Source: Candidatus Methanophagales archaeon (GTDB lineage Archaea; Halobacteriota; Syntropharchaeia; Alkanophagales; Methanospirareceae). From it: DNA of 37,775 bases. Positions 14,890 through 16,026 of the stretch are shown one piece after another. Each line of letters starts with the position of its first letter. The stretch's first letter is position 1. A model generated the notes under the pieces. The model was not told the DNA's origin and ran no database searches. It worked only from the letters and a program-made list of their open reading frames with translations. Where the stretch lies: positions 7,323 through 45,097 of the forward strand of contig JAPDIG010000005.1 in the NCBI GenBank assembly GCA_025966525.1, in the 5' to 3' direction. The translations under genes were made by a program, and so were the position numbers.

Positions 14890-15111
14890 CTATGGCGCAC
14901 CTATCTCTTCTATCTCTACAATTTTTCGTCTGCTTTTAGCGCCCGAAACGATTCTTACGTTGGCGTTAAAGTATTTTGACAGTAACTTAATAACCGCTCT
15001 ATTTGCTTTGCCTTTTGTTGCTGGCTCTTTTACTCTTATTACCAATGGTTCAGCCGCAATTATCTCCTCCACATCTGAATTGGGAACGACTTTTATCACG
15101 ATTTTTTTCAT
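14890..15111 (-). CDS. DUF167 (YggU-like) family protein
   Basis: A small protein of the DUF167/UPF0235 family, function unknown. The family core is plain: an N-terminal strand (KKIVIKVVPNS), IRVKEPATKGKANRAVIKLL and VRIVSGAKSRRKIVEI. I place the start at the ATG at 15111 (73 residues). A TATA-like element at 15134-15143 predicts transcription starting almost exactly there, and homologues begin with this strand. An ATG at 15123 would add four residues. The promoter abuts the left end of an IS1595-derived element, so its upstream sequence was probably replaced by that insertion. Confidence 0.88.
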   Translation of the reverse strand: MKKIVIKVVPNSDVEEIIAAEPLVIRVKEPATKGKANRAVIKLLSKYFNANVRIVSGAKSRRKIVEIEEIGAP

Positions 15112-15133
15112 CAGCGAATCCATTTATTAGTGG

Positions 15134-15143
15134 TATTTAAAAA
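15134..15143 (-). promoter_or_regulatory. TATA-like element of the DUF167 gene, beside the IS remnant
   Basis: On the minus strand this reads TTTTTAAATA, about 25 bases before the ATG at 15111, consistent with a leaderless transcript. The inverted end of the insertion element begins two bases further upstream, at 15146. Confidence 0.4.
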
Positions 15144-15145
15144 TT

Positions 15146-15490
15146 GCTCATCCCCACATTTCATCGTAATATTTTAATGGGGATACACACTTAAAAAATC
15201 TCGTAGAGATTGATGAAATTTACGTTACCGCTGGCGAGAAAGTAGGGGAACATATTAAAAATGTCAAAGAGCATAGAACAGTTAATCATTCGGAAGAATA
15301 CGTAAAGGATGGCGTGCATGTGAATACCGCTGAAAAACGGCATAGATTTTTGAGATCATGGTTGAGAAAATTCAGAGGTGTGTCAAAACACTATTTAGAC
15401 AAGTATCTGTCTTTCTTTGAACTTTCATTTAACCGAAGGAGCTTCGGTTTCGCATGGTTATATTGTGCCCGATGAGTTAAGGGGATGAGC
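15146..15490 (+). mobile_element. Internally deleted IS1595-type (ISXO2-like) element, 345 bp, with 10-bp terminal inverted repeats
   Basis: The ends gctcatcccc (15146-15155) and ggggatgagc (15481-15490) are perfect inverted repeats. Between them a reading frame without internal stops keeps the start of the DDE domain (LVEIDEIYVTAGEK) and then jumps to the C-terminal part (HRTVNHSEEYV, HVNTAEKRH, FRGVSKHYLDKYLSFFE). About 80 central residues, including the second catalytic Asp, seem to be missing, and the reading frame is kept across the gap. A 7-bp-stem hairpin (15431-15449) lies near the 3' end. I see no 8-bp target duplication: the flanks are taaaaatt and gtctattt. This is a non-autonomous relic, possibly mobilisable in trans. 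Confidence 0.7.
15191..15475 (+). pseudogene. IS1595-family transposase remnant
   Basis: An open frame of 94 codons before TGA at 15473-15475, without a convincing start codon. It holds the first catalytic Asp (VEIDEIYV) and the region around the catalytic Glu (NTAEKRHRFLRSWLRKFRGV) typical of IS1595/ISH4-type transposases. The N-terminal zinc-ribbon and helix-turn-helix part and the middle of the DDE domain are absent, so it cannot be an active transposase. Confidence 0.7.
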
Positions 15491-15492
15491 GT

Positions 15493-15939
15493 CTATTTTT
15501 TACTGAGCGTTAAATTCAGGAAAGGTAACTCCTCCTTTTTTCTGTAAACCAGAGCTTGACATATTGCGATCAGGTTGCCTCCCTCATTTTCGACGTTGAT
15601 CGTGTACGTTCCGATTCTGCCGGACCTGCTCACTTCTTTCGCTTCCGCGTATAAGACGTCTCCCGGCGAAGCGGGTTTTATATAGGTAATATTCATACTG
15701 AGCGCGACCGCAGCGGTTCCATGTGAGTTCGCAGCCGTTTCAAATGCTTCATCAATCAGAGAAAATATCGCCCCTCCATGTGCCATACCAAAAATATTCT
15801 CCATATCTCCTTTAAATTCCATTTTAACTTTTGAATACCCTTCATCCAATTTTATCAGTTCCATTCCCATTTTCTTTGCATAGGGCTCCTCTCTGACCCG
15901 CTTAATTATTGCATCGAAAATTTTGTCTTTATCCTCCAT
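15493..15939 (-). CDS. PaaI-type hotdog-fold thioesterase
   Basis: A 148-residue single hotdog domain of the PaaI/YbgC acyl-CoA thioesterase superfamily. The catalytic-region motif is visible in FGMAHGGAIFSLIDEAFETAAN, quoted in part as MAHGGAIFSLIDEA; Gly-Gly and the acidic residue on the long helix are characteristic. NITYIKPASPGDVL follows as the next strand pair. Its substrate is unknown; it may hydrolyse stray acyl- or aryl-CoA. The ATG at 15939 is preferred to the one at 15945, because AGGGGGGC touches the latter but is about 7 bases from the former. Its stop codon is only two bases from the right end of the insertion element, so the last residues may be altered. Confidence 0.9.
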   Translation of the reverse strand: MEDKDKIFDAIIKRVREEPYAKKMGMELIKLDEGYSKVKMEFKGDMENIFGMAHGGAIFSLIDEAFETAANSHGTAAVALSMNITYIKPASPGDVLYAEAKEVSRSGRIGTYTINVENEGGNLIAICQALVYRKKEELPFLNLTLSKK

Positions 15940-16026
15940 TTTCATGCCCCCCTACAACTTAGCTGGGTAATATATCTGTCCATATACATAAAAGTAAGTA
16001 ACTCAACTTTATCATAAAAAAATAGA

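Follow-up and report, generated by a model that had tools for sequence, protein, structure and literature searches.

The window, the whole 37,775-nucleotide stretch of Methanophagales DNA analysed here, contains a 345-bp unit between a DUF167/YggU-type gene and a thioesterase-type gene. The unit is bounded by inverted ends and encloses pieces of an IS1595-type transposase gene. The features of the locus are:

14890–15123, reverse strand: flanking DUF167/YggU-type gene (PF02594), which lies apart from the thioesterase gene in relatives
15139–15189, forward strand: left end of a subtype found also in G016:C56 (94% identity); the cut at about 15189/15190 is the first deletion junction
15146–15490, forward strand: the whole unit, which ends, homology and copy search identify as a probable 345-bp internally deleted IS1595-family element
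15146–15166, forward strand: left terminal inverted repeat, its first 10 bases perfect, found also in other family genomes
15170–15475, forward strand: 101-codon frame, open from stop to stop, that contains transposase pieces and has no ATG, GTG or TTG before 15314
15212–15214, forward strand: codon of the putative first catalytic Asp (within VEIDEIYV), its role assigned by alignment
15242–15250, forward strand: approximate second deletion junction; by alignment with the 302-aa transposase of locus L073, some 73 residues are lost here, the second catalytic Asp among them
15263–15427, forward strand: C-terminal part of the transposase, containing the Glu region and differing from the G044 copy mostly at third codon positions
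15470–15490, reverse strand: right terminal inverted repeat, in agreement with the right-end consensus of longer copies
15493–15945, reverse strand: flanking gene of the 4HBT thioesterase type (PF03061), whose homology to genus relatives ends at 15507–15512, beside the element

An initial annotation, made from the sequence alone, described perfect 10-bp ends, and these are present at 15146–15155 and 15481–15490. The longer arms (15146–15166 and 15470–15490) are 81% complementary over 21 nt and imperfect beyond the outer 10. A perfect 10-bp inverted pair alone is weak evidence of an element border, as such pairs are not rare: the whole window has 77 of them at 100–1500 bp spacing, while 60 first-order Markov resamples of the window average 63 (range 37–84). 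That frequency would suit a fortuitous inverted repeat flanking a piece of transposase gene, with no element border at all. The ends nevertheless recur elsewhere. The left-end pattern GCTCATCCCCRCATTTCATCG, exact in the window, produced 52 matches with at most three mismatches in 14 of the 51 family genomes, whereas the reversed pattern produced none in the same genomes at the same tolerance. The right ends follow a consensus, GCTCATCCCCCTAAACCATCGG, that differs slightly from the left, so that the two can be told apart, and left and right ends were found as a pair at 14 distinct places in the family, one of them the window copy, spanning 82 to 822 bp (loci sharing the same 14-base flanks entered the count once, which removed L057 and repeat fetches). 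Because other copies are delimited by the same ends, the ends of the 345-bp unit are real, and the chance explanation, refuted by this recurrence and pairing, has practically no probability left. The terminal repeats are shared with longer IS1595-family members: a full-length relative with these ends, the search for which had been set beforehand as the test that could refute the annotation, exists in decayed form within the family and intact in haloarchaea.

Inside the element, near its right end, a hairpin at 15431–15449 has an 8-bp stem (AACCGAAG/CTTCGGTT) and a folding energy of −8.4 kcal/mol, unremarkable against shuffles (z −1.87). An Rfam search of the window returned tRNA only.

The enclosed frame joins a first-Asp stretch, VEIDEIYVTAGEK, to a C-terminal Glu stretch (GVHVNTAEK...FRGVSKHYL) without a stop from 15170 to 15475, just as the annotation had it. 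Profile NF033547 (transpos_IS1595) aligns with this frame over its positions 154–215 of 215 (62 matched) at 59.5 bits and E 4e-16, below the curated cut-off of 75, and PF12762 matches at 29.2 bits and E 1.1e-6, above its cut-off of 27. By these profile matches the frame consists of IS1595-type transposase pieces with a predicted DDE_Tnp_IS1595 domain, and the family assignment made earlier holds.

Haloarchaeal relatives show what a complete element looks like. Those with both ends found measure 942–943 bp, carry a nearly whole transposase gene and end in CGCTCATC or a close variant; L073, which occupies the same place as L093, encodes an uninterrupted transposase of 302 aa. These elements (another is L125 in Halobacterium salinarum DSM 3754) have the same DDE transposase type as the window copy, and among the best 80 of 171 relatives in a scan across genome contigs their C-terminal stretch is 50–57% identical to that of the window. 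The window copy differs from them in being 345 bp long, with two internal deletions.

Alignment with the intact L073 protein locates both losses. The first-Asp stretch and the C-terminal Glu stretch are retained; residues 1 to about 131, which include the zinc ribbon, are gone together with the start codon, as are the roughly 73 residues that would separate AGEK from the C-terminal part, among them the second catalytic Asp (CTDQYS). The catalytic roles are assigned from the DDE pattern of the family, as quoted for ISApl4 in PMC12561309. In G016:C56, the same left-end subtype continues into ATG ATT GAA..., the 5′ end of the transposase gene; homology between that left end and the window stops about 10 bases upstream of the ATG. 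A left end cut before the transposase start, taken together with the central gap, implies at least two deletions. The initial annotation had proposed a single in-frame loss of about 80 central residues; the central loss stands at about 73, but a second deletion removed some 130 N-terminal residues and the start codon. The N-terminal zinc-finger domain, encoded in L073 (CPHC...CHNC) and present in most IS1595 subgroups according to PMC8101967, is therefore deleted from the window copy, and the catalytic triad is incomplete, its second Asp lying within the missing stretch. Since the triad is incomplete, the unit is filed as a defective derivative of an IS1595 member and not as a functional one. 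Of the family hallmarks, it has the DDE_Tnp_IS1595-type domain and lacks the N-terminal zinc finger, the complete triad and the 8-bp duplication considered below.

The reading frame, said earlier to have been kept, is open from stop to stop but has no usual start where one would be needed. The first in-frame ATG, GTG or TTG is the GTG at 15314, which lies 3′ of both junctions and of the first Asp codon; synthesis of a protein that links this Asp to the C terminus is therefore unlikely. This bears on the suggestion that the shortened protein acts as an inhibitor, in which a C-terminal piece begun at GTG 15314 or 15320 would bind transposase or DNA and repress transposition. The open frame is compatible with such a role, as is the pattern of differences from G044:C125: over 54 shared codons the two differ at 10 first, 4 second and 22 third positions, and 20 of the changed codons are synonymous and 10 are not. 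The excess at third positions, however, would be produced equally by divergence between parents that were still intact; it indicates that most of the divergence arose when these were protein-coding and does not demonstrate selection on the shortened form. Moreover, every usual start codon of the frame lies downstream of the first Asp, the DNA-binding N terminus is lost, and the draft genome has yielded no IS1595-family transposase to inhibit. A retained inhibitor is accordingly very improbable. The same two observations, a frame still open and differences mostly at third positions, imply that drift as a pseudogene has been short or slow, which counts to some extent against a dead relic.

The host genome is a draft of 1.49 Mb in 126 contigs, estimated to be 94.8% complete. 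The 345-bp unit is present in it as a single copy, and a search with NF033547 at E ≤ 1 detected nothing in the draft besides the unit itself; the absence of a transposase source in the host thus depends on a draft assembly. Nor do the same joined pieces occur in any other of the 99 genomes searched. A single copy, with no repeat of the joined pieces among these genomes, gives no sign that the 345-bp form ever multiplied. Among viral contigs, four stretches fitted a pattern and none of them encodes a relative.

Sister genomes of the family contain relatives of the element that are themselves decayed. NF033547 exceeds its curated cut-off in none of the 51 family genomes and reaches E ≤ 0.001 in five; in a phylum sample, the protein piece of the window was matched in 42 of 392 genomes, five of them within its own family. 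The longest copy with two ends, 822 bp in G046:C243 (L003, 909–1730), holds most of the transposase with many stops and frame breaks. Like it, the copies in G044:C125, G028:C18 and G016:C56 have the same ends or transposase pieces as the window, the G044 protein being 69–73% identical, but their deletions are different ones and none has the junctions of the window. Besides these, the sister genomes contain shortened copies of 595, 501, 325, 208, 156, 145, 140, 89 and 82 bp; in the draft of the host genome itself no further copy was found.

The 82-bp end-bearing type is represented by five full or nearly full and two partial matches in G008, G028, G044 and G046. Four of the five copies (L038, L057, L191 and L192) have similar left flanks, and L038, L191 and L192 similar right flanks too; the fifth, L053, has a different left flank and a right flank like that of L057. 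Flanks common to several copies mean that not all are separate insertions, and the four with similar left flanks may trace to one old insertion. We considered these copies as the best case of a moving MITE and set them aside, as the shared flanks speak against separate insertions. In L038, L057 and L192, ATGAG is doubled at the right end.

Members of the IS1595 family generate an 8-bp target site duplication. Two identical haloarchaeal copies, L087 and L088, are flanked by 8-bp duplications, ATATGCTA and TGCAGCAC respectively, which sit one base outside GCTC; the true end is thus CGCTC. At L090 the duplication TAGTCAGAT is 9 bp by our reading, and at L089, L091, L092 and L093 none was seen. 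The window copy likewise has none at the same offset (best 4 of 9), in keeping with what the initial annotation had noted. Within the family, the 822-bp copy scores 7 of 9 at a different offset, in T-rich sequence. An internally deleted 325-bp copy (L007/L010, in G028:C37) has a 7-of-8 duplication at the haloarchaeal offset and is the best case in the family for a mobilised short copy. The rest of the 14 end pairs score 6 or fewer.

These comparisons bear on whether the unit is a genuine MITE, that is, a miniature made elsewhere by deletion and brought to this site, already 345 bp long, by a transposase acting in trans. Prokaryotic MITEs, like the unit, are short, IS-derived and non-autonomous, with terminal inverted repeats; at 345 bp, with two deletions and no functional transposase, the unit agrees with that anatomy. 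Both of its ends are intact, with the arm complementarity given above, and short derivatives of the same element (82–595 bp) occur in sister genomes, the recurrent 82-bp type and the 325-bp copy with its probable duplication among them. The unit departs from MITEs in being single-copy, in having no target duplication and in keeping 101 open transposase codons. Neither a duplication nor presence at several sites indicates that it moved as a unit, and a likely duplication was seen at just one other derivative, the 325-bp copy. MITEs tend to be multicopy, as stated in PMC10969869; this unit occurs once in its genome and its joined pieces recur in no other of the 99 genomes searched. We consider it improbable that the window copy is a genuine MITE. 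What had been called a MITE-like derivative in an early state is MITE-like in anatomy (deleted, non-autonomous, with shared ends) but not in movement as a unit, and the early state finds no support, given the solitary copy, the missing duplication, the lack of a transposase in the draft genome and the absence of the joined pieces from the other genomes searched. Given the shortened copies in sister genomes, 'MITE-like' is a fair label for the element family, though it is unproven for the window copy. In sum, the annotation is partly supported: it saw the anatomy well and overread state and function.

The surroundings of the element point to rearrangement. In the genus relatives G001–G003, matching pieces of the region lie on separate contigs, and homology to them ends at 15507 or 15512 on the thioesterase side and at 15111 on the DUF167 side. 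The flanking genes are not side by side in any of these three relatives, so no empty site could be read. Across 12 thioesterase loci of at least 75% identity, the window included (the 12 weaker of 24 hits were left out), the DUF167 gene adjoins the thioesterase gene in the window alone and at none of the other 11. A RecQ-like helicase gene is the neighbour at 3 of these 11; the remaining 8 have neither neighbour, in some cases owing to contig ends, which makes the gene-order argument a partial one, several of the 11 loci being contig-cut or neighbourless. The host genome has its RecQ-like gene on a different contig, C83, which breaks off soon past that gene. This comparison of neighbours indicates that gene order changed beside the element in the lineage of the window. 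A missing target duplication is described as accompanying IS-linked rearrangements in PMC11708052. The position of the element suggests that it lies at the breakpoint of a rearrangement, which it may or may not have caused. The 3′ end of the thioesterase gene (15493–15510), beside the element, is altered relative to genus relatives.

We conclude, with a probability of roughly 0.88, that the 345-bp unit is an immobile, internally deleted IS1595-family relic at a rearrangement breakpoint. An autonomous IS1595 element would have entered the genome through its CGCTCATC-type ends, by the cut-and-join reaction usual for DDE transposases. Later it would have lost its start codon and N-terminal zinc-ribbon part, as well as the central part of the catalytic domain, second Asp included, leaving a 345-bp unit with no transposase product. 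With no further IS1595 member found in its own genome, mobilisation in trans is probably impossible now. We infer that the genome was rearranged at the element, and not merely near it, from the absent target duplication and from flanking genes that are non-adjacent in relatives. IS copies with internal deletions are common, and the unit itself, as an ordinary dead relic, has little importance. Together with the shortened derivatives, it records an IS1595 lineage of ANME-1 genomes that is now extinct or nearly so; a literature search of partial coverage turned up no description of elements like these from ANME-1 or Methanophagales. More tentatively, and with the odds against it, a once-active IS1595 family in Methanophagales (ANME-1) may have repeatedly spawned end-bearing short derivatives of 82 to 595 bp, some of them moved in trans, the window unit being a late member that came to mark a gene-order breakpoint after its autonomous parent had become extinct.

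The haloarchaeal relatives, reached through this relic, have a feature that may matter more than the relic itself and that would offer a testable case of recoding in archaea. Their transposase gene shows a conserved −1 frame change located after the first Asp and before the (S/G)DKPPV stretch, a region that the window copy has lost. At 19 loci (within L114–L137, with L087–L092 also cited) the change accompanies an A-tract that reads GGACTCAAAAAAAGG or GGACTCTCAAAAAAGG, the latter giving A AAA AAG in phase; its forms are also written GGACTCAAAAAAAGG or CTCTCAAAAAAGG. The shift is −1 at 15 of the 19, including L133, and the other shift at L118, L130, L131 and L137. Immediately 5′ of the tract, 17 of the 19 have a perfect inverted repeat, AGTCCGCGC-NN-GCGCGGACT, forming a hairpin with a 9-bp stem (−18.8 and −25.3 kcal/mol in two examples). 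Pairwise identity across the 19 regions ranges from 57 to 96% (median 76%), a spread that speaks against a single dead copy. The sister group that lacks the tract is in frame at the 16 loci where both motifs were found. These frame counts are taken from the 80 best of 171 relatives, less the many loci that yielded no motif. The tract and hairpin together constitute a possible programmed frameshift. IS1595 members are described with a single transposase gene in PMC8101967, and the term IS1595 does not appear in the accessible text of a review of archaeal recoding (PMC8211752). Outside the haloarchaea, L140 (Archaeon HR02, HRbin02) has the two halves of the gene in different frames at the same place, at about 1740–1810, with no A-tract.
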